Shown here: positions 29,170-39,059 of the stretch, piece by piece
Position numbering within the stretch: the stretch's first letter is position 1
How the letters are laid out: every line of letters starts with the position of its first letter
Source: Clostridiales bacterium
GTDB taxonomy: Bacteria > Bacillota > Clostridia > Saccharofermentanales > Saccharofermentanaceae
Length of the DNA: 39,059 nucleotides
Assembly (NCBI GenBank): GCA_017451265.1
Contig: JAFSPU010000013.1
Span: 1-39,059, forward strand
Direction of reading: 5' to 3'
Program-made: the position numbers and the translations under genes
The notes under the pieces: generated by a model
Seen by the model: the letters and a program-made list of their open reading frames with translations, nothing else
What the model was told of the DNA's origin: nothing
Database searches by the model: none

Positions 29170-29183
29170 AGCCAAAAATGGCT
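29170..29183. promoter_or_regulatory. Palindrome in the divergent dehydrogenase/CbiG-like promoter region
   Basis: AGCCA and TGGCT are arms around a 4-base A-rich centre, midway between the divergent starts at 29130 and 29235. TATAAT on the plus strand lies at 29159-29164. The site may be an operator. The arms are short and chance is possible. Confidence 0.3.
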
Positions 29184-29234
29184 ATACCATTATTTTTTTT
29201 TATTGTTAAACTGTATTCGGAGGAAGTTACAGTT

Positions 29235-30296
29235 ATGTATCTTTATTGTTACGCACGCTCTGACAGAGCGAAGTTAACGGGCCAAAAACTGATAGACAAT
29301 GCAGAAGGTGAGTGGATCGATAATCTCGAGTCATTCATCTCTTCTTACGCTACCGGAGGACAGAGAGCCGACGGTACCGTGGTTCTTCTCCTTCACCAGG
29401 AGGCATGTGTAAAGCTTTTGCTCGAGCGTCTTTATCCTTCAGATATCAAGTTCCCCGTGATCAACATTACCCCTGACGGTAAGTACGCGGGCATACTGAG
29501 ACCCGGCGGATACAATACTTATCAGATACTCGACAAGATCACTGCAATCCTCGGTTCCACTGCGCTTTCAGCAGAGGATGACCGTAAGGATACGGCTCCG
29601 GATCTCATGCGCATGGTCATGTCCTATCAGATGAAGGCTGACGATGAAGCGCTGCTTAAGGAGATCACCGCTTTCATCAAGGACGGCGGTACGGTAGATG
29701 TCTACAGTGACCTTCCTCTTGAGATGAGCGAGCCTGTTCTTGATTCATTAAGTTACAGACCGTTCCTTTTCCAGTCCAATCAGAAGAACGAACTGAACCA
29801 GGCTTATGCTTCCGCCAACAGCGAAGACAAGTATTCGGTATTCATCACATGCGCCCGCATGCAGGATATACCGAAGAACGGCAAGGTTCTGGTCCTCGTT
29901 CCCAAGATCGTAGTTCTCGGCATTGAAGTGTCTTCCAGATCCGATCCGGAATACTCGGCACGCACTTGCCGTGAATATATAGAGAAGTACCACATCAATC
30001 CTGATGCGGTAGTAACGGTAGCGGTTTCAGCTCTGTCTAAGGACAGCGAGGCTGTAAGGAAGATCGCGGAGGATCTGGGGTGCTTCGTGACTTACTTTGA
30101 TTCAAGGCTTCTCAAGGCTGTAAGAGTTCCTCTTAACATGGGATTCACTCCCGAGAGACTTGATTCCGATTTCTGTACTGCTGCAGCGTGTCTTGCGTCC
30201 GATAACGGCAGGATACTCATGAGAAGAGCGGGAGACAGGAATTCGGTAATAATGACGACGTCGATAAAGAGGAGTCCTGTTTATCTGACGCACTGA
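29235..30296 (+). CDS. Divergent orphan CbiG-like protein
   Basis: This 353-residue protein has an N-terminal part like the CbiG N-domain (VVLLLHQEACVKLL, then FPVINITPDGKYAGILRPGGYNTYQILDKI). The C-terminal part is like the CbiG C-domain: VVLGIEVSSRSDPEY, VTVAVSALSKDSEAVRKIAEDLG, then FCTAAACLASDNGRILMRRAG. CbiG opens the lactone ring of cobalt-precorrin-5A in anaerobic B12 synthesis. Here the usual SGHxGGAN stretch reads LRPGGYN, a middle domain is degenerate, and no other cobalamin gene is in the window. The ATG at 29235 follows GGAGG. Function beyond homology is unknown; it may be a repurposed binding protein. It precedes the transporter-like unit by 46 bp. Confidence 0.6.
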   Translation: MYLYCYARSDRAKLTGQKLIDNAEGEWIDNLESFISSYATGGQRADGTVVLLLHQEACVKLLLERLYPSDIKFPVINITPDGKYAGILRPGGYNTYQILDKITAILGSTALSAEDDRKDTAPDLMRMVMSYQMKADDEALLKEITAFIKDGGTVDVYSDLPLEMSEPVLDSLSYRPFLFQSNQKNELNQAYASANSEDKYSVFITCARMQDIPKNGKVLVLVPKIVVLGIEVSSRSDPEYSARTCREYIEKYHINPDAVVTVAVSALSKDSEAVRKIAEDLGCFVTYFDSRLLKAVRVPLNMGFTPERLDSDFCTAAACLASDNGRILMRRAGDRNSVIMTTSIKRSPVYLTH

Positions 30297-30342: not shown

Positions 30343-32727
30343 ATGAAAAAAGGAATTAAGATGCTGGCGGCAGGTCTGGCATTGACCATGATGGTGCCGA
30401 TGTTTGCCGGCTGTAAGAAGGGAAGAGGCGGTGAGACTGTATCCGGTGACGATGCCTGGTACAACCTTAATAAGATCGAACTCGAACAGACCGCCGATCC
30501 TAATGATTTCGATTATGTATCTTCAAATTACCTTTGTACTTTGGACGATGGTTATGCTTTCCGTAAGTCCGGTTCGCTTAAGATCCCTGACGGCGTAGAT
30601 GTCGAGAGTGTTGATCAGGCAGATTACTATGTAGATGAGCTTGAGATCTACAATACTGCAGGTAATCTGGTTAATTCATTTGATCTCAGGGCTTTGGTAA
30701 GCGGTATTGACGGTGATTATGTATCTGTTTCACAGCTCGTCCGTACTGAGGACGGATTCACAGCTATAGTTAGCGCATATAACTACAATACGCAGAGTTC
30801 TGTTAGTTATACCGCACAGATTGATCTTGCTTCCGGCACGATGAGCGCTCCGTCAGCAAGTGCGGACAGCAATGACCGCGTCGGAGAACTCACAAGTCAG
30901 GGTGCTACCGATGAGGGTTCGGTGAAACTCGGTTCATATACACTGCATAAGATCTGGTTCTCTGCTTCTGCAACAGGTTCCATTGCTACATACGTTATCC
31001 TTGCTGAAAATGATGACGGAACTGTAACTGAGTTTGATATGAGATCGTTATTCCCTAATCTGGAAGTCTTTAATATCAGTAGCATGATAGATATGGGAGA
31101 TAACCAGATCCTCTTATTGGCTACCAGCAGTGATTCAGACCTTGTATTCACCATCGATCTGAATTCCGGATCCATGTCACAGGATAACGGTGACTGGGCC
31201 TGGCTTAGGGAAAAGAACTACATGATCAGACAGGTAGACGGTGCAGGTTCGGTAGTCAGAGATGATGACGGTATCTATTCCATCGACTTTACAAACAAGA
31301 CATTTACACCTTTGTTCCTGTATACAAGCTCCAATGTTAATGCTTATGAGATCGCTAATCTGGTACCTATCTATGTCACGTCTGACAGAGCTCTGTTCTC
31401 CGGTACACAGTACAATCCCGTGCCCGGCACCATGAACACGGGTATTCCTATGATCTATGAGTTTACAAGAGCCGATTCCAACCCCAATGCGGGAAAGACC
31501 ATTCTTGATGTAGCCTGTATCGGAAACCTTTCATATCCTCTTTGTCAGGCAGTATGTAATTTTAATGGGACCAACGCAGACTACTTCTTAAGATTCGATA
31601 TGTCTTATCAGATCGAAGTTGATTACAGCAAGGGCGATTCATCCGAGAATGAAGATAATGCTGCAATTACGCTCGGAAATCAGCTTGCTATGGATATCAT
31701 GTCCGGAACAGGCCCTGACCTCATCATCAACGGCTCTAAGTTCGGTATGATCAACAATTCAGAGTACCTTCTTAATCTGTCTGACTTCGTTTCAGAGAAT
31801 TGCTCCGCAGACAGCTACTACACTAATATCCTTGATTCAGCGAAGATCGGCGGAGAATTATTCCAGGTTCCTCTGTGCTTCGGCGTTCAGGGTATTGTTA
31901 CAGATGCTTCCAATGTAGAACCCGGACAGACTGGTTTTACTTTCGATCAGTATCAGTCATTTGTAGAGGGTCCTTGTAACGGAAATGCTCCCATCAACCA
32001 GGGCAGAATGTATTTCTTCCTCAATTCACTTAACTGCATGACAGATCTTATGAATGAGGATCAGATCGTTAATTATAACAACGAAGCATTCAGAACACTT
32101 GCTGAGTTCACGGCTAACAATGTAAATGAAGTAATGCCTTCTGAGGATGATTTTGCCTACATGGATGATGACCCTGTTGCATCCATGGTAACTATCACCA
32201 ATGCTGCCAGCTACTTCAATTACACCAAGAACGGACAGCGTGTAGTTCTCGGAATCCCTTCTTATGACGGAAGAGGTCCTGTCATTATTTCATCTGATTC
32301 GGTTGCTATCTCTGCACAGACGGTCGCTCCCGATGCATGTAAGGAATTCGTATCCATCCTTTTCGGAGAAGAGATCCAGACTCTGTACGGATATCAGAGC
32401 GGAATTCCTCTTTCCCGTTCCGCTTTTGACACAGTAGGTTCGAAGTATGTTCAGTCCCAGAACGATGATCTCGACAGAAACTTAAGATTATATTCTGAGG
32501 CTGAGATGGTCCTGTACGGAATGAATACTGAGCGTATGGACGAAAGCGCAGTTGATGACTTGGCTGCTCTTATCGACAGTCTGACAGGCTGGTATGTCAA
32601 CGACGGTTCTATCAATGCCATCATCAGAGAAGAGATGCCTGCGTATTTCGAAGGTCAGAAGACTCTTGAGCAGATCATTCCTGTTCTTGAGGACAGAGTT
32701 CAGACAGTAATTAACGAGAGAAGGTAA
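30343..32727 (+). CDS. Solute-binding lipoprotein with a large N-terminal beta-rich domain
   Basis: This 794-residue lipoprotein has a signal peptide and lipobox MFAGC (Cys at about 24). Residues about 40-380 contain repeated beta-rich, Asp/Ser/Thr-rich segments (DDGYAFRKSG, GDYVSVSQLVRTEDGFTAIVSAYN) reminiscent of a propeller. From about 385 to the end it looks like a sugar-type extracellular solute-binding protein: ILDVACIGNLSYPLCQAVCNFN, MSGTGPDLIINGSKFG, VPLCFGVQGIVTDASN, and a helical C terminus. The usual solute-binding protein is about 400-450 residues, so this is a fusion. It is followed by two importer-type permeases. The ATG at 30343 follows AAGGGGG and begins the signal peptide. 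Confidence 0.85.
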   Translation: MKKGIKMLAAGLALTMMVPMFAGCKKGRGGETVSGDDAWYNLNKIELEQTADPNDFDYVSSNYLCTLDDGYAFRKSGSLKIPDGVDVESVDQADYYVDELEIYNTAGNLVNSFDLRALVSGIDGDYVSVSQLVRTEDGFTAIVSAYNYNTQSSVSYTAQIDLASGTMSAPSASADSNDRVGELTSQGATDEGSVKLGSYTLHKIWFSASATGSIATYVILAENDDGTVTEFDMRSLFPNLEVFNISSMIDMGDNQILLLATSSDSDLVFTIDLNSGSMSQDNGDWAWLREKNYMIRQVDGAGSVVRDDDGIYSIDFTNKTFTPLFLYTSSNVNAYEIANLVPIYVTSDRALFSGTQYNPVPGTMNTGIPMIYEFTRADSNPNAGKTILDVACIGNLSYPLCQAVCNFNGTNADYFLRFDMSYQIEVDYSKGDSSENEDNAAITLGNQLAMDIMSGTGPDLIINGSKFGMINNSEYLLNLSDFVSENCSADSYYTNILDSAKIGGELFQVPLCFGVQGIVTDASNVEPGQTGFTFDQYQSFVEGPCNGNAPINQGRMYFFLNSLNCMTDLMNEDQIVNYNNEAFRTLAEFTANNVNEVMPSEDDFAYMDDDPVASMVTITNAASYFNYTKNGQRVVLGIPSYDGRGPVIISSDSVAISAQTVAPDACKEFVSILFGEEIQTLYGYQSGIPLSRSAFDTVGSKYVQSQNDDLDRNLRLYSEAEMVLYGMNTERMDESAVDDLAALIDSLTGWYVNDGSINAIIREEMPAYFEGQKTLEQIIPVLEDRVQTVINERR

Positions 32728-32738
32728 TGGCATAACAG

Positions 32739-33749
32739 ATGTCTTCCGCTGAAGAGAAAAAGAAAGAATCAATAGATGAAAAGGGGACTGAAGGCCGTAA
32801 GCCGCAGACGATAACTGCGGTTACGGTCGACCCCGAACATCTCGCCCGCCTTAAGGCAGATAAGAAGAAGTTCCACAGGAAAAGAAGAATAAAAGACTGG
32901 GCTATGTTCACAGGTTACCTGACACCCAGTCTTGTCGGCGTTATGCTGTTCTTCTTCCTGCCGCTTCTGTTGATCCTTAAGACTTCTTTCCAGCGTTCGT
33001 CGACCAATTCTGATTTTGTCGGCTTCGTTAACTACGAGCGAGTTCTTACGAATGAATCTTTCATTAACGCCGCCAAGAACTCCATGGCATTTTCAGGCAT
33101 TGCCGTTCCTCTTTCGGTTCTTCTCGCACTGCTTCTTGCCATCCTTCTTAACACCAAGCTTCCCGGCAAGAGTATTTTCAGAAGTATCCTTCTTAACCCC
33201 ATGATGGTTCCTGTAGCATCCGTCGTTCTTATCTGGCAGGTATGCTTCAGCTACAACGGACTTGCTAACGGCTGGGGATTCTATCAGCTGTTCGAGCCGG
33301 ACCGAATCGACTGGCTTAAATCAGATCACTCTCAGTTTGTTATCCTGCTTCTGTTCCTGTGGAAGAACCTGGGTTATAACATGGTTCTGTTCCTTGCAGC
33401 TTTGAACAGTATCGATGAAGAGATACTTGAAGCTGCCACCATGGACGGTGCTGGTTCTCTCAGAAGATTCTTCTCCATCAAGATGTACTTCCTCGCTCCG
33501 ACTCTTTTCTTCGTAGCGATCATGTCTTTGATCAATTCATTCAAGATATTCCGTGAGGTATATCTTCTTACGGGTGATCACCCATATGCCAAGCTGTATA
33601 TGCTTCAGCACTTTATGAACAACCAGTTCACCAACCTCGACTACAGTAAGCTGTCGGCGGGTGCCATCATAATGTGCTTGTTTATGATAGTTATCGTAGG
33701 CGTACTGTTCTTTGCAGAAGCCAAGTTCGATGCGGATGTGGAAGGTTAA
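32739..33749 (+). CDS. Sugar-type ABC permease (MalF/UgpA class)
   Basis: This 336-residue protein has six predicted TM helices after a charged cytoplasmic N terminus of about 60 residues (rich in Lys and Glu). The importer EAA loop reads EEILEAATMDGAGSLRRF, near residue 225. That loop couples permeases to a MalK/UgpC-type ATPase. No ATPase gene is in this operon, so it must borrow one encoded elsewhere, which is common for such permeases in Firmicutes. The long N-terminal extension is unusual. It lies 11 bp after the binding-protein stop and 3 bp before the second permease. Confidence 0.93.
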   Translation: MSSAEEKKKESIDEKGTEGRKPQTITAVTVDPEHLARLKADKKKFHRKRRIKDWAMFTGYLTPSLVGVMLFFFLPLLLILKTSFQRSSTNSDFVGFVNYERVLTNESFINAAKNSMAFSGIAVPLSVLLALLLAILLNTKLPGKSIFRSILLNPMMVPVASVVLIWQVCFSYNGLANGWGFYQLFEPDRIDWLKSDHSQFVILLLFLWKNLGYNMVLFLAALNSIDEEILEAATMDGAGSLRRFFSIKMYFLAPTLFFVAIMSLINSFKIFREVYLLTGDHPYAKLYMLQHFMNNQFTNLDYSKLSAGAIIMCLFMIVIVGVLFFAEAKFDADVEG

Positions 33750-33752
33750 GAC

Positions 33753-34808
33753 ATGAGCACGAAGACTGAACAGCAAAGAAGAGACGAAGCATCACAGGCC
33801 AGGCGTAAGGTCCAGACCAGAGTAGAAAGGGATCTGTCTTTCTTTGAGAAGATGGATGATACTGCCAAGGAAGAATTCTTTAAGCAGGAGAAGGCCAAGT
33901 CATTAAAGGTTAGAAGAGCCAGAAAGATTAAGAGAAGGATCACTATTGCGATCGGACTTATCATTGCGGCTTCCGTCTCGATCCTCGCCATCATCCCGGT
34001 ATTCTTCACATTCCTTAACTCATTTATGTCGTCCGCTGAGATCGCACATAACTACGGAATTATCTTCCAGAGTCTTTCCGGTCATGCCGAGCAGGGTGCT
34101 ACTTACCTTGCCAAGTCGCCGACGATCACTCTGGTTCCCCAGAAGGTTACGATCGAACAGTATCTAAACCTCCTGTTCATGAGCCCTACATATCTTCTTA
34201 AGTTCTGGAATTCGATCATACTTGTAGTTCCTATCGTTATCGGTCAGATGGGTGTCTCCTGTCTTGCCGCATACAGCTTTGCAAGATACAGAAGAAAGAG
34301 AAGAGAGGTGCTCTTCTTCTCATACATCATCCTGATGCTCATGCCCTTCCAGGTTACCCTCGTTCCGAACTACATGATCTCGGAGTCACTCGGTATCCTC
34401 AACACCAGATGGGCCATCATACTTCCGGGTATTTTCTCGACATTCGCGATCTTCCTCCTTACCAAGTACATGAGGCAGATCCCGATTGCTTATATCGAAG
34501 CAGCCAAGCTTGACGGCGCCACAGAGTGGCAGATCTTCACCAAGATCGCAGTCCCTCTTTGTAAGAACGCTGTCTTTGCTCTTTCTATATTGTTGTTTAT
34601 TGATTACTGGAACATGGTTGAGCAGCCGCTGGTTCTTCTGACCAACGCGGATAAACAGCCGATGTCAGTATTCCTGTCACAAATAAATGAAGCGGAGATC
34701 GGTATAGCTTTTGCCGCATCGGCACTGTACATGATTCCGCCGCTGCTGATCTTCCTATGGGGTGAGGAGTACCTCGTAGAAGGAATCTCAAGATCAGGTG
34801 TTAAGTAA
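33753..34808 (+). CDS. Sugar-type ABC permease (MalG/UgpE class)
   Basis: This 351-residue protein has a charged N-terminal extension of about 65 residues with predicted helical heptads (SFFEKMDDTAKEEFFKQEKAK). Six TM helices follow, with a sizeable extracytoplasmic segment after TM1, and the EAA loop reads AYIEAAKLDGATEWQIF. It pairs with the preceding permease. The N-terminal extension on both partners suggests an extra cytoplasmic contact not needed in ordinary sugar importers. The 3' end overlaps the region of the adaptor gene's ribosome site, and the six genes from 30343 onward look like one transcript. Confidence 0.93.
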   Translation: MSTKTEQQRRDEASQARRKVQTRVERDLSFFEKMDDTAKEEFFKQEKAKSLKVRRARKIKRRITIAIGLIIAASVSILAIIPVFFTFLNSFMSSAEIAHNYGIIFQSLSGHAEQGATYLAKSPTITLVPQKVTIEQYLNLLFMSPTYLLKFWNSIILVVPIVIGQMGVSCLAAYSFARYRRKRREVLFFSYIILMLMPFQVTLVPNYMISESLGILNTRWAIILPGIFSTFAIFLLTKYMRQIPIAYIEAAKLDGATEWQIFTKIAVPLCKNAVFALSILLFIDYWNMVEQPLVLLTNADKQPMSVFLSQINEAEIGIAFAASALYMIPPLLIFLWGEEYLVEGISRSGVK

Positions 34809-34824
34809 ACGGAGGGGAAGAAAA

Positions 34825-36660
34825 ATGAAGAAGCACGAGAATACAAAGGGCAGCCGCAGATGGGTTGTAAGGGCGATGGTAACGTTCCTCGTCGTTCTTG
34901 CATTGCTGACATTCTTTTCGAACACGATTATGAATGCCACCATACCGCTGGTAGTAACAGCCAACGCCATGCGAGGCAATCTCTCTTATACGAACACGGC
35001 TACCGGCACGCTTCAGTCCGATGATCAGGTTGAGGTCAAGGGTATTGACGGCAGAACTGTAAGTGAGGTTCACTTCACCAACTATGATACGGTTGAGGAA
35101 GGCGATGTCATCCTTACTCTCGTCCCTGTTGAAGACATGAGCGAGCTCACTCAGCTTGAGACACAGCTTCTTGAACTGCAGCGCCAGCAGGAGTACGCTG
35201 CCAGAACTCCCCGCCACAATGACTTTACTACTCAGAACCAGGCTGTAAGAACAGCTCAGCAGGCTCTTGCCGATGCACAGGCCACACTTAACTCCGCTAC
35301 TACAAGAGAGCAGACAATTGCGGCCGCACAGCAGGTGCTTAACGCTAATCAGGCTGCAGTTAACGCCCTGACTTCCCAGGTCGCTTCCGCTTCGGCTACA
35401 GTAGAGAACATCAGTGCGATGATCGGCGCATGCCAGGCAAGAATCGCCATCATAGACGGAACGGCTCCCGGCGTATATGCCGCCCCTGCAGGACGTCCTT
35501 CCAAGAACGATCCCGAGGGCGGAGACGGTACTGCTCCCGTAGATCCCAACGCAAGCCAGGGAACACCGGACCCCAATGCCGGAACAGGCACAGGAACAGG
35601 TACTGGAGACGGTACTGACAGCACCACTACTACTGCACCCACCACACCTACAACACCTACAACTCCTACAGGTACCATTCCCACATACCCGGTACCCACA
35701 GTAGACCCCAATGCCAGCCGTCAGGCCCTTCAGGACCAGATCGCACAGCTCCAGGGTCAGCTCATCGAGGCACAGAACAGACTCGCAGGCTATTCCGCAC
35801 AGCTTGCCGCAGCTCAGGCTGCAGTAACTGCTGCACAGACAGCCATCACAACAGCCGAGGCTCTGCCCAGTACATATGCAGCTACCGATGCTGTATTGGA
35901 TGCTCAGGCTGCCCTCACTGCAGCGCAGACAGCTTTGTCGGACGCTCAGATCAACGCAGGTATCGCAGCAGACCAGGCAGCAGACCAGGTTGAGGACAGA
36001 GAGCGCCAGATCGCAGATCTCGAGACCAAGATCGAGAGAACAAGAGCAAGACTTACACAGAATGAGATCGTTGCTCCTGCATCAGGATACCTTTATAACC
36101 TCTCCGTTTCTGCAGGTGACAAGTTCACAGGCGAGACGGTTATCTTCACTATCGTTCCTGAAGACAGTAACTACTCTGTCTCCTTCGTATTCCCTACCAA
36201 TGTCGTACAGTCATACCAGGTAGGTCAGGAGTTCTCCGCTTCTAATTACTACTATATTGATAAGATCGTTATCACTAACATCAAGCCCGACCCCAACAAC
36301 CCCAGAGACAACCGTATCGTTAAGTGCGCGGTATATACAAGTTTCCCCGTATATCCCGGTGAGAGCCTCACGGTAACGGCTGACAAGGGCAACGCGACTT
36401 ACGACCACGTGGTGGCATCAAGTGCCATAAGCGAGGACAACTCGGGTAACTTCGTCTTTGTTGTGGATCAGTCATCCGGTCCTTTGGGCGACAGATACAC
36501 GGTAAGAAGAGTTGCTGTCAGTGTACTGGCTACCTCCGGATCCTTCACGGCTATCCAGGGCGAGGGCCTTGACGGCGTCATGGTCGTAACCCGAAGCGAG
36601 GAGCCTTTGCATAACGGAGACCGCGTAAGACTTGAAGATTACAGCGGCAATTCTAACTGA
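34825..36660 (+). CDS. HlyD/MacA-like membrane-fusion (adaptor) protein
   Basis: This 611-residue protein has one TM helix (about 13-33). A lipoyl-like half (TATGTLQSDDQVEVKG...VHFTNYDTVEEGDVILTLVP) leads into a long Gln/Ala-rich coiled-coil hairpin of two helices (about 105-205 and 298-408). The other lipoyl half follows (IVAPASGYLYNLSVSAGDKFTGE), then beta-barrel segments. Between the coil helices lies an insert of about 85 residues rich in Thr, Pro, Gly and Asp. It sits where the hairpin tip would dock a partner. In MacA/YknX-type systems adaptors work with MacB-type permeases; the gene next downstream encodes a MacB-core-like protein. The ATG at 34825 follows GGAGGGG. Confidence 0.88.
   Translation: MKKHENTKGSRRWVVRAMVTFLVVLALLTFFSNTIMNATIPLVVTANAMRGNLSYTNTATGTLQSDDQVEVKGIDGRTVSEVHFTNYDTVEEGDVILTLVPVEDMSELTQLETQLLELQRQQEYAARTPRHNDFTTQNQAVRTAQQALADAQATLNSATTREQTIAAAQQVLNANQAAVNALTSQVASASATVENISAMIGACQARIAIIDGTAPGVYAAPAGRPSKNDPEGGDGTAPVDPNASQGTPDPNAGTGTGTGTGDGTDSTTTTAPTTPTTPTTPTGTIPTYPVPTVDPNASRQALQDQIAQLQGQLIEAQNRLAGYSAQLAAAQAAVTAAQTAITTAEALPSTYAATDAVLDAQAALTAAQTALSDAQINAGIAADQAADQVEDRERQIADLETKIERTRARLTQNEIVAPASGYLYNLSVSAGDKFTGETVIFTIVPEDSNYSVSFVFPTNVVQSYQVGQEFSASNYYYIDKIVITNIKPDPNNPRDNRIVKCAVYTSFPVYPGESLTVTADKGNATYDHVVASSAISEDNSGNFVFVVDQSSGPLGDRYTVRRVAVSVLATSGSFTAIQGEGLDGVMVVTRSEEPLHNGDRVRLEDYSGNSN
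35500..35715 (+). repeat. Low-complexity Gly/Thr/Pro codon tract
   Basis: Short tandem motifs encode GTGTGTGTGD, TTTTAPTTP and TTPTTPTG. The core near 35580-35680 is almost pure ACA/ACT/CCT/GGA/GGT codons. It forms the insert at the tip of the adaptor's coiled coil and may be length-variable. A glycosylated linker is conceivable. Confidence 0.8.
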
Positions 36661-36671
36661 CGGGGAAACAT

Positions 36672-37961
36672 ATGGCCTTAAGTAAAAGCGCAAAGAGATA
36701 TATTAAAGACAAGCTCTACCTGCAGAAAAGACGTATCAGAAAGATCGTCATGGCAGCGCCTTTCTGGGTACTCATCATCGGAGTAACCCTGACCTCGCTC
36801 GGCATCGGAAGATACGCTTACCTCACAGACAAGAGGCAGGACCAGAACATGGCTTCCTACTGGGAATACGATGCCCAGTATAACTACAGGCACATGTCTG
36901 TCTATGCAAGAGGAGCCAGACCCGGCGGTGAGACTACACCTCCGGTCTACATTAACACAGCAACTTCACTTAAGAGGGCTGACATCGTAGCCATCCGTAC
37001 TGCCCTGCAGGGAATCGCCGACACGAGCCTCGGCCAGTCAGGCAAGGGAGGACTCAGTCAGGACGGAAGGCCCCGCGGCTGGGAGGACTGTTACTCATCA
37101 TTCCTCACGGGAACCATTGAGAGCGTCGCTGACACTGAGAGCGTTACGCAGTTCTCCTTCACGAGCACCTGCGACATCATCGCCATCGACGGCAACTACC
37201 CCGCATTCCACCCGTTCAGATACATGTCTGGCGGATTCCTTCCCGAGGTAGGTTACGATAACAGACAGATCGTCCTCAATGACGTTCTTGCCTGGAAGTT
37301 CTATAAGTCATACGACATAATCGGCTACACTGTTAAGCTTTGGGGCGAGAACTTCACTGTAATCGGCGTAGTAGGAGAGCCCAACGACGGTATTGCCAGA
37401 AGTGCAGGCACAGAACAGCCCCGTGCATATGTCTATTTTTCTGCCATGGAGGAGCTCGCTCCTTTGGAGGCAGCTGACCCGAGCTCCAATCCCGCGCCCG
37501 GAAGCAACGGCAGTTCATCAGCTCCTGCTTCATCCGGCGTTTCAGCAGCCGCACCTGCAGGTTCCGGTGCCGCAGATCTTTCCGCTGGAACCGGCTCTGC
37601 CACACAGCGCCCCGACATGGCGATCCTTTGCTATGAGGCCATGCTCCCCGAGGCTGTCCGCAATGTTGCCAAGAACGATATGAGTTCCGCGGTAACGAAC
37701 TACAATCCTTCAGATCCTAATTTTTATATCATCAGTAATACAGGACGCTTCTCTTTGCTCGACTCATGGCGCTTCATGTGGCCTATCGGCAAGACACAGT
37801 CCAGGCTTGCGGCATACGAGTTCCCATACTGGGAGAAGACGGCTCAGCTTACATCTGAGCACCTTTTTGCAGATGAGGTAATTACCGTGGCAGGCATCGT
37901 TACGCTGATTTCCGGAACGCTGATGGCGGCTCTGAGGTATCGTAAATCGTCACGAAAATGA
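36672..37961 (+). CDS. MacB periplasmic-core-like protein lacking the FtsX membrane domain
   Basis: This 429-residue protein has TM1 at about 28-48. A large extracytoplasmic domain resembles the MacB_PCD region of FtsX-type permeases (RADIVAIRTAL, IIAIDGNYPAFHPFRYMSGGFLPEVGYDNRQIVLNDVLAWKFY, YTVKLWGENFTVIGVVGEPNDG). A Ser/Ala/Gly/Pro-rich insert lies at about 270-313. One C-terminal TM helix is at about 400-420. Normal MacB permeases have four TM helices after TM1-PCD (one before and three after); the three-helix FtsX part is missing here. The lack of a frameshift remnant suggests a stable architecture, not a broken gene. It starts 11 bp after the adaptor, its likely partner. Confidence 0.75.
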   Translation: MALSKSAKRYIKDKLYLQKRRIRKIVMAAPFWVLIIGVTLTSLGIGRYAYLTDKRQDQNMASYWEYDAQYNYRHMSVYARGARPGGETTPPVYINTATSLKRADIVAIRTALQGIADTSLGQSGKGGLSQDGRPRGWEDCYSSFLTGTIESVADTESVTQFSFTSTCDIIAIDGNYPAFHPFRYMSGGFLPEVGYDNRQIVLNDVLAWKFYKSYDIIGYTVKLWGENFTVIGVVGEPNDGIARSAGTEQPRAYVYFSAMEELAPLEAADPSSNPAPGSNGSSSAPASSGVSAAAPAGSGAADLSAGTGSATQRPDMAILCYEAMLPEAVRNVAKNDMSSAVTNYNPSDPNFYIISNTGRFSLLDSWRFMWPIGKTQSRLAAYEFPYWEKTAQLTSEHLFADEVITVAGIVTLISGTLMAALRYRKSSRK

Positions 37962-37985
37962 AATAATGCAGCGCATTTCCAAAAG

Positions 37986-37991
37986 TATAAT
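37986..37991 (+). promoter_or_regulatory. TATAAT -10-like box before the last lipoprotein
   Basis: A consensus TATAAT lies 35 bp before the ATG at 38026, with a GGGGGAA ribosome site between. No good -35 is visible 16-18 bp upstream. The gene may have its own promoter in addition to read-through from the adaptor unit. Confidence 0.4.
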
Positions 37992-38025
37992 TTAAATACG
38001 AGATTATATTCAGGGGGAATGTGCA

Positions 38026-39059
38026 ATGATCGGAAATAGAAGAAGTAAATTAACAGCAGTAGTTTCCTCTCTTCTGGCAGGAGTGTTTCTTTTAACATCC
38101 TGTTCGGTCAATATGAACGGCATCGGTGAGGCTTTCTCCGATCTTGGAGAGAATCTTAACAGAGCTGCCGAAGGCAGATCCGCCGGAGATAATGAGGAGA
38201 CGGTTTCCGTTGCCGAGACTGTTGTAACGGAGACAATAATCGAAGAGACAGAGGTTGCTGAGACATCTGCCCCGGATCCCACAGCGACTCCCACCCCTAC
38301 GGCAACACCCACGCCTTCTCCCACACCTGTCCCTCAGAGAGTAGATTTCTCAGAGCTTACTGAGGATCCGCTTACTGATAAGATCACTGTAGAGACAGAA
38401 GAGTTCTCTGAGTCGGCGCATGCTGAAGATGATGACGATATACTTCTTGCACAGTTCGAAGGCATAAGGATGCTTCTTTCCTCTGAGGGGGATATGGCAT
38501 CTGTTGTATCCGTAAATCTTATGCTCGATGCTTTCTATATGGAAGCTGAAGGCATCTATAACAGAACCGTTAATGAACAGTACGCCGCATACGGGCTGGA
38601 TCCGGATACTGTTCCTGATACTATTACAGTGTCTGTTAATTATGATTATTATTTTAATGGCAGAATACTCGCCGTTGTAATGCACTATGAGACGACTCAG
38701 GAAGATGATGTCTTAAATGAGATCACAGAATATGTAACGTATGATCTTTATACAGGTCAGATGCTTACACCTGAGATGATGTTTACGGATGCCGATGCAT
38801 TCTATGAAGCAGTAGCAGAAGCAATTGCTGATGATACTGCCGACAGAAGAGATTCGGCTGAGGATTATGAGATCGAGTTTATCGGTGTCGAAGAGACGGA
38901 TGAAGGAAAGATAATCACGACTGTTATCGCTGCTTCAGACGACGGCACAGATCTTTATACGATTAACCTCGGAGACTTCTATGAGTTCCTCACACGCTAC
39001 GCCAGAATAGTATGGAGCGTAAGTCTTGAAGATTCTGAAGATGTTGAAGATGAGGAAGA
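38026..39059 (+). CDS. Lipoprotein with RsiV/DUF3298-like domain (3' end cut by window)
   Basis: The frame is open from ATG 38026 (after AGGGGGAA) to the window end, at least 344 residues. It begins with a lipoprotein signal and lipobox LLTSC (Cys at about 26). A Glu/Thr-rich region and a Pro/Thr linker (TPTPTATPTPSPTPVP) follow at about 85-105. The last part has SVNYDYYFNGRILAVVMHYE, a YVTYDLYTGQMLTPEMMFTD segment and a helical AFYEAVAEAI stretch. That pattern matches the DUF3298/DUF4163 domain found in RsiV and PdaC, where it binds lysozyme or peptidoglycan. It directly follows the MacB-like gene. The protein's end is not visible. Confidence 0.75.
   Translation, partial: MIGNRRSKLTAVVSSLLAGVFLLTSCSVNMNGIGEAFSDLGENLNRAAEGRSAGDNEETVSVAETVVTETIIEETEVAETSAPDPTATPTPTATPTPSPTPVPQRVDFSELTEDPLTDKITVETEEFSESAHAEDDDDILLAQFEGIRMLLSSEGDMASVVSVNLMLDAFYMEAEGIYNRTVNEQYAAYGLDPDTVPDTITVSVNYDYYFNGRILAVVMHYETTQEDDVLNEITEYVTYDLYTGQMLTPEMMFTDADAFYEAVAEAIADDTADRRDSAEDYEIEFIGVEETDEGKIITTVIAASDDGTDLYTINLGDFYEFLTRYARIVWSVSLEDSEDVEDEE

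Follow-up and report, generated by a model that had tools for sequence, protein, structure and literature searches.

A candidate oligosaccharide importer operon with genes for a MacA-like adaptor and a MacB core that lacks an ATPase

Genes and predicted proteins of the unit

The window analysed here is a 39,059-nucleotide stretch of DNA from a gut Clostridiales bacterium (assembly GCA_017451265.1), and it corresponds to the entire contig C7 of a 1.96-Mb assembly that is 69.5% complete. Six codirectional genes on the forward strand (positions 30343-39059) encode a binding lipoprotein, a MalF-type permease, a MalG-type permease, a HlyD/MacA-like adaptor, a MacB-like protein, and a further lipoprotein whose gene is interrupted by the contig end at 39059 (Table 1). 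A previous sequence-only reading of this DNA had described six codirectional genes with these parts, and the reading of open reading frames (ORFs) together with family assignments confirms that description.

The two permeases belong to the BPD_transp_1 family, and EAA loops are present in both. In MalFGK2, the EAA loop of MalF is the part that docks on the ATPase. The EAA helix of MalG is also named in the part of PMC7658222 that was available to us.

The fifth protein matches MacB_PCD above the Pfam cut-off and retains the first transmembrane helix (TM1), the core, and TM2 of MacB, after which it terminates. Pfam detects no FtsX domain in this protein, which agrees with the earlier description of a MacB-like protein without the FtsX helices. 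The best structural matches to its predicted model are MacB (3ftj and 5gko), a pneumococcal structure (5xu1), and YknZ (5f9q). We refer to this protein as half-MacB. It is through its stalk helices and core that MacB holds MacA. No MacB-type ATPase, whether fused or adjacent, is found among the ORFs and Pfam matches of the window unit.

The predicted model of the fourth protein contains an N-terminal transmembrane helix, a barrel-sandwich domain, a helical hairpin, and a beta-barrel, the combination that marks HlyD-type membrane-fusion proteins. Its RND_mfp match (3.4e-19) lies below the cut-off, and its structural matches to AcrA, MexA, MacA, and EmrA have low TM-scores (0.2-0.25 by query). 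Adaptors of the HlyD/MacA family are textbook export parts and, to our knowledge, a TolC-type outer-membrane exit duct is not to be expected in Clostridia.

The first protein of the unit is a long solute-binding protein (SBP). Its C-terminal half matches SBP_bac_1 at 24.8 bits, slightly below the 26-bit cut-off, and Pfam assigns no family to its N-terminal ~400 residues, which perhaps form a beta-propeller. The N-terminal parts of two SBP homologues from family f109 give weak PQQ_2 or Reg_prop matches. Among 15 long SBPs of such units examined with Pfam, 11 score above the cut-off, the window protein falls slightly below it, and three (L057:9153, L058, and L061) have no family assignment.

For the sixth gene, homologues are found in the equivalent place in five of five related loci (L010-L014), and Pfam gives no family for the encoded lipoprotein. 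The sequence-only reading had called this protein RsiV-like, a resemblance for which we found no support. The RsiV-type domain families are named DUF3298 and DUF4163, and a Pfam scan of 12 members returned no RsiV-type match with an E-value of 0.5 or lower (the window copy being cut at its end). A transglutaminase-like protein is encoded instead of the window's sixth gene at L016:11351-12352 and in the equivalent place in L068-L070, all of family f1. Directly before the SBP gene lies an ORF of 372 amino acids (29178-30296) with a borderline CbiG_C match (27.8 bits, cut-off 27), and a homologue of this ORF occupies the equivalent position in L010-L014.

Table 1. Features of the six-gene unit, in window coordinates
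Feature	Position	Strand	Basis or remark
SBP, solute-binding lipoprotein of 794 (~800) amino acids	30343..32727	+	lipobox FAGC by eye; C-terminal SBP_bac_1
MalF-type permease, BPD_transp_1, charged N-terminal extension	32739..33749	+	Pfam
MalF EAA loop, EAATMDGAGSLRRFFSIKMYFLA	33429..33497	+	
MalG-type permease, BPD_transp_1, charged N-terminal extension	33753..34808	+	Pfam
MalG EAA loop, EAAKLDGATEWQIFTKIAVP	34497..34556	+	
HlyD/MacA-like membrane-fusion adaptor, 611 amino acids	34825..36660	+	RND_mfp; structure model
Adaptor N-terminal membrane helix, FFSNTIMNATIP motif at its end	34849..34938	+	
Adaptor Pro/Thr-rich insert, residues 215-291, at tip of helical hairpin	35467..35697	+	model; low confidence
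Half-MacB: TM1, MacB periplasmic core, TM2; without TM3-4 and ATPase domain	36672..37961	+	
Half-MacB periplasmic core domain	36879..37751 (limits approximate)	+	model; low-complexity insert at residues 272-310
Half-MacB C-terminal helix, equivalent to MacB TM2; conserved P.WE motif at its start	37827..37955	+	
Sixth-gene lipoprotein, Pro/Thr-rich linker	38026..39059 (contig-cut)	+	lipobox LTSC by eye

Conserved gene order and a single MalG clade

A scan with the fifth protein yielded 17 named loci, whose sources, where stated, are rumen, omasum, jejunum, or faeces. The order MalF, MalG, HlyD-like adaptor, half-MacB is present in 16 of them (MalF being partial at contig starts), and the other locus, L022, begins inside the HlyD-like gene. 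These loci may share species with some of the genomes in a second survey, in which profile A4 detected half-MacB in 23 of 391 genomes of the class at 261 bits or more, the next match scoring 87.6 bits. All 23 neighbourhoods were read, and the four-gene order is found in 22, with that of G144 (L064) cut by a contig start. By family, the genomes are distributed among f1 (11), f28 (seven), f41 (four), and f3 (one). In another class, which includes family f109, half-MacB is found in eight of 43 genomes.

Searching the 391 genomes with the window MalG gave matches in 47 at E <= 1e-45, and the best 23 (at least 340 bits, the next being 308) are exactly the 23 genomes with half-MacB. Among the other 24, a HlyD-like gene scoring above 80 bits lies on the same strand in 21, a weak piece is found in two (G012 and G097), and none is found in G070. 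A MacB-core neighbour above 60 bits is present in 16 of the 24. The MacB profile was trained on 11 of these 16 genomes, as the profiles were built partly from loci that they scored. Ten of the 11 are also above the MacB_PCD cut-off in Pfam, and the remaining one, L173, shares 56% identity with L174. Ordinary MacB proteins score 68-101 bits with this profile, so a score of 60 bits denotes a MacB core and not this system in particular.

Some of these 24 genomes depart from the pattern. L224 (G070) has neither HlyD nor a MacB core, in L223 (G012) the HlyD piece is weak (46 bits) and a MacB-core match is missing, and L186 (G097) has only a HlyD-like piece (122 amino acids, 45 bits, no Pfam match). 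A MacB-core match is also absent from L189, L181 is contig-cut, and a protein with multiple transmembrane helices and a weak or no profile match occupies the MacB position in L185, L188, and L221. The piece in L186 (5771-6139) is a one-helix protein, encoded with MalG on one side and the gene of a MalK-type ATPase on the other, and is perhaps an adaptor remnant. The same locus was considered as an FtsX-type unit and rejected, its 496-amino-acid gene encoding a C39-peptidase ABC protein. L183 carries tandem units, the second with HlyD-like pieces only (146 and 72 amino acids).

In a MalG tree of 98 rows, a branch with 100/100 support separates the 63 rows that have a HlyD-like neighbour, together with one contig-cut row, from all others. 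A second 100/100 branch, present in all 200 bootstrap trees, sets the 39 half-MacB rows apart. Judged from this tree, the MalG proteins with a HlyD-like neighbour are a single clade, inside which half-MacB arose once. Long branches were flagged among the outer rows, and these rows were kept in. The rows left out were L209 (a copy of the window MalG), five near-duplicates (two of L024 and the second MalG of L012-L014), and MalG ORFs below 230 amino acids (including L180). L131 was labelled as a half-MacB row by hand, and its adaptor, opposite an antisense ORF, was found by tblastn.

Two controls covered other MalG-like loci and ordinary MacB loci. From 169 MalG-like matches in 12 genomes, 30 were examined with their DNA, and five of these are MalG proteins of the module, all with HlyD. 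None of the 25 other loci (L192 being unlabelled) has HlyD or MacB within 1.5 kb, a flank that would miss an order such as that of L172, where HlyD lies 3.8 kb from MalG. From 26 loci of the next-best MacB matches, three are the system itself (L082, L083, and L085). The 23 others, ordinary MacB loci, lack MalF and MalG within 1.5 kb, and an ABC-ATPase gene is present in 22 of them. The proposal of the sequence-only reading that the six genes are one unit rather than two unrelated sets is upheld by the gene order in relatives (22 of 23, with the other contig-cut), by the one clade that the MalG proteins form, and by both negative controls.

Some relatives carry a longer MacB-like protein with three to six predicted helices. 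When aligned to ordinary MacB with hhalign, TM1-core-TM2 alone aligns (99.7%), the best match past TM2 reaching 4.7%, and Pfam finds FtsX in none of the 13 proteins of this kind that were tested. The possibility that they contain a full-length FtsX domain was rejected, since the alignment is confined to TM1-core-TM2.

ATPase genes, neighbouring genes, and the probable solute

A MalK-type ATPase gene adjoins the MacB gene at 14 loci in 13 relatives. In seven of eight genomes of family f109, half-MacB is followed by a gene that matches the MalK profile (none lies within 1.5 kb in G781), and two of these ATPases were typed with NCBIfam as NF008653 (UgpC) at 504 and 472 bits (cut-off 432), with OB_MalK and TOBE_2. 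In family f23, a MalK-profile gene follows the MacB gene in three genomes. In G588, G538, and two loci of G725, the genes MalF-MalG-HlyD-MacB-MalK-SBP stand in a single row. Pfam typing of four ATPases (L130 and L131, L174 for f23, and L233 for the single-row arrangement) gave OB_MalK and TOBE_2. A MacB-type ATPase beside the longer MacB of f23 was considered and rejected on the basis of these same two domains.

In the window genome, one UgpC scores above the cut-off (G000:C2:30783-31889) and carries OB_MalK and TOBE_2. It is 53-57% identical to the tested in-operon MalK-type ATPases, and no MalF or MalG match is present among the genes in the 20 kb around it. Twenty genomes were searched in this way: 18 have exactly one UgpC above the cut-off, G211 has two, and G202 has none (60 of 90 candidates scored). 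Presumably, the UgpC of the window genome powers the importer encoded in the window. Importers that have no ATPase gene of their own and use a shared MsmX or MsmK are documented in the available portions of PMC7658222 and PMC12838199. Given this precedent, the MalK-type ATPases in the operons of relatives, and the UgpC encoded elsewhere in this genome, the absence of an ATPase gene from the window unit is ordinary, and the adaptor and MacB core are its unusual parts. The lack of an ATPase, which the sequence-only reading had presented as a puzzle, therefore loses its force. A motif screen of L010-L026 found no ABC ATPase, but its pattern was too strict, as it missed an exporter-type ATPase of family f28 that Pfam detected.

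The genes that follow the window unit can probably be read from a second contig of the same assembly. One end of contig C8 encodes an SBP, a MalF (813 amino acids), a MalG, an unassigned protein, and a GH94 enzyme, and these genes are 86-98% identical to those following the unit in L010, where Pfam assigns the downstream 829-amino-acid protein to GH94. Because of this synteny, C8 was placed after C7, which it probably continues. Genes matching the sizes of the downstream set of L010 are also found in L011-L014, with weak MalF and/or MalG blast matches. The sequence-only reading had named two outcomes that would undo it: a gene order that relatives do not share, or downstream genes that start an ordinary MacAB operon whose ATPase lies beyond the window. 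Both checks came out in its favour, since the order is conserved and the likely next genes are those of a second importer and GH94, and a truncated MacAB operon is accordingly rejected. The MalF of the second importer (L010:14253-16700; G000:C8) is unusually long at ~815 amino acids, with its permease domain at residues 550-789.

Genes for GH9-CBM3 or GH5 enzymes adjoin the unit in L015, L071, and L073, and lie one gene apart from it in L072. These glycan-enzyme neighbours point to cellulose products as the solute in f1, and the substrate in the window lineage is probably a cellodextrin or a related beta-glucan. Since the neighbour genes differ outside f1, the solute probably differs among lineages as well. 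Long SBPs also adjoin the unit, two or three in each case, in L057, L062, L066, L134, and L170.

Proposed function and comparison with known systems

We consider it probable that the unit encodes a CUT1-type (MalFGK2-like) ATP-binding cassette (ABC) importer of oligosaccharides whose added extracytoplasmic subunits are a MacA-like adaptor and a MacB core without an ATPase. These parts would act inward and as a single complex. The ~800-residue lipoprotein would capture an oligosaccharide, MalF-MalG would move it across the membrane, and the UgpC/MsmK-type ATPase encoded elsewhere would provide the power. Half-MacB would hold the adaptor over MalFG such that the two create a ring or tube on the outer face, and the adaptor ring might hold or shelter the lengthy SBP and lead the solute across the inner zone of the wall. 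The model for this picture is Spr0693, a MacA-like protein of Streptococcus pneumoniae that is described, in the accessible part of PMC5768738, as a hexameric nanotube proposed to lie across the inner wall space, although the direction would be opposite. In PMC4446572, Gram-positive adaptors are taken to suggest a wider variety of roles than bridging to an outer-membrane factor. A bolder proposal, which we put forward tentatively and regard as possible rather than probable, is that the unit represents an undescribed class of ABC importer, spread over several families and at least two classes of the phylum. In such an importer, an efflux-type adaptor tube and a motor-less MacB core would sit on a MalFGK2 engine and serve either as an import conduit through the wall or to transmit MalK power to the outside.

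Several observations weigh against the importer interpretation. No SBP gene is recognised beside many f1 units (L016-L018, L021, L026, and L068-L073), whose SBP may be supplied from elsewhere or be dispensable. The neighbour genes vary by lineage and are as compatible with a wall-related role as with sugar uptake. For example, a D-Ala-D-Ala carboxypeptidase (Peptidase_S11) is encoded upstream of the six-gene operon in L233 and L236, with two-component genes near it in L233. A histidine kinase and an HtrA-like trypsin/PDZ protein are encoded upstream in L063 of family f41, and an exporter-type ATPase (301 amino acids) and a protein with nine transmembrane helices are encoded upstream of MalF in genus g31 of f28 (L057, L058, L059, L060, and L134). 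The module MalK is the sole UgpC above the cut-off in G528, G696, G292, and G054, and may thus be a shared ATPase located there by chance. The system is also uncommon: 11 of the 23 half-MacB genomes among the 391 of the class come from the window's own genus, and half-MacB is present in four of 398 genomes of a phylum sample, two of which are new, belong to f109 in another class, and score 202.7 and 259.9 bits (next 72.6). Two of 338 phylum genomes carry the longer kind, with scores of at least 635 bits against 100 for the next match, and both belonged to the training set of the profile. Lastly, the adaptor model has a pTM of 0.41, and elsewhere the known place of HlyD adaptors and MacB cores is in efflux and envelope work, as far as the available parts of PMC5985334 and PMC4446572 extend.

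Further genes accompany some of these loci. An additional short gene (132-198 amino acids, putatively of GntR type) lies upstream of MalF in the f28 g31 loci. The nine-helix protein there matches DUF6449 in L057, and in L057 and L134 its gene shares 4 nt with MalF. L172 has an ATPase-membrane pair resembling that of f28 g31 before HlyD, and L063 has a ThuA-type protein downstream.

Alternatively, rather than guiding solute, the adaptor and half-MacB could anchor the importer (or its SBP) in the wall and signal its occupancy, in the manner of trigger-type transporters. Such a sensor or regulator would be in keeping with kinase or response-regulator genes close to the unit in L063, L233, and L235, and with the faster evolution of the adaptor and core, since MalF and MalG are 47-59% identical to those of the window where the MacB core is 18-22% identical. 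These three cases come from different lineages, most other loci having untyped neighbours, and no kinase is identified beside the window unit. We judge a sensor role unlikely and tentatively favour the adaptor and half-MacB as part of the import machine over a regulator of import.

It is also doubtful, and to a slightly greater degree, that the unit is an envelope machine in which MalK cycles MalFG and thereby sets the MacB core and adaptor in motion for work outside the membrane, on the wall or on lipoproteins, with sugar import secondary or absent. MacB proteins perform mechanotransmission according to the accessible text of PMC5985334, and both the unrecognised SBP of many f1 units and the D-Ala-D-Ala carboxypeptidase of L233 and L236 would fit this role. 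Against it stand the EAA loops kept in the window MalF and MalG, the sets of two or three long SBPs beside the unit in five loci, and the glycan enzymes near f1 units. Finally, the chance that an ordinary sugar importer and a MacAB efflux remnant merely share an operon is very small: every part has ordinary relatives individually, but the MalG proteins form a single clade with a single half-MacB group, the order is conserved across families and outside the class, the controls gave 0 of 25 and 0 of 23, and the FtsX domain is absent from the MacB-like proteins tested.

The protein families of the probable importer are known, and their combination is one for which we found no precedent. No published description of the unit was found from titles and the starts of abstracts, which is weak evidence given that subscription journals are poorly covered. 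A term search of the available text of two adaptor reviews (PMC4446572 and PMC13328181) did not find the words 'importer' or 'uptake', and the term 'MACB' in the part of PMC12838199 available to us is a strain name and was rejected as a mention of the MacB protein. If the importer interpretation is true, then the role of these adaptors is broader than export, and the unit offers a way to study how long oligosaccharides cross the wall of Gram-positive cells and reach the membrane. With L233-L236, a six-gene version that includes its own MalK, the question can be put directly to the test by co-expression.

Three known kinds of system invite comparison. In MCE and Mla-type importers, an extracytoplasmic ring or tube stands on an ABC importer. 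The likeness to the window unit is one of idea alone, as the protein families and substrates are unrelated. Closer in composition are the CUT1 importers with a shared ATPase, including those served by MsmX or MsmK and the cello-oligosaccharide transporter of A. bescii (PMC7658222 and PMC12838199, in the parts available). They resemble the window unit in having an SBP and two MalFG-type permeases, no nearby ATPase gene, one UgpC/MsmK-type ATPase encoded elsewhere, and a link to cellodextrins. A HlyD adaptor or MacB core subunit is unmentioned for them in those parts, whereas both are present in the window unit. MacAB efflux pumps, including YknWXYZ and the Gram-positive MacAB-like Spr0693-0694-0695 system (in the accessible part of PMC5768738), share with the unit a membrane-fusion adaptor with a hairpin and a MacB periplasmic core. 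Unlike these pumps, the window unit lacks the FtsX helices TM3-4 and a MacB-type ATPase, and its adaptor and core are set among import permeases and an SBP, joined by MalK in some relatives.

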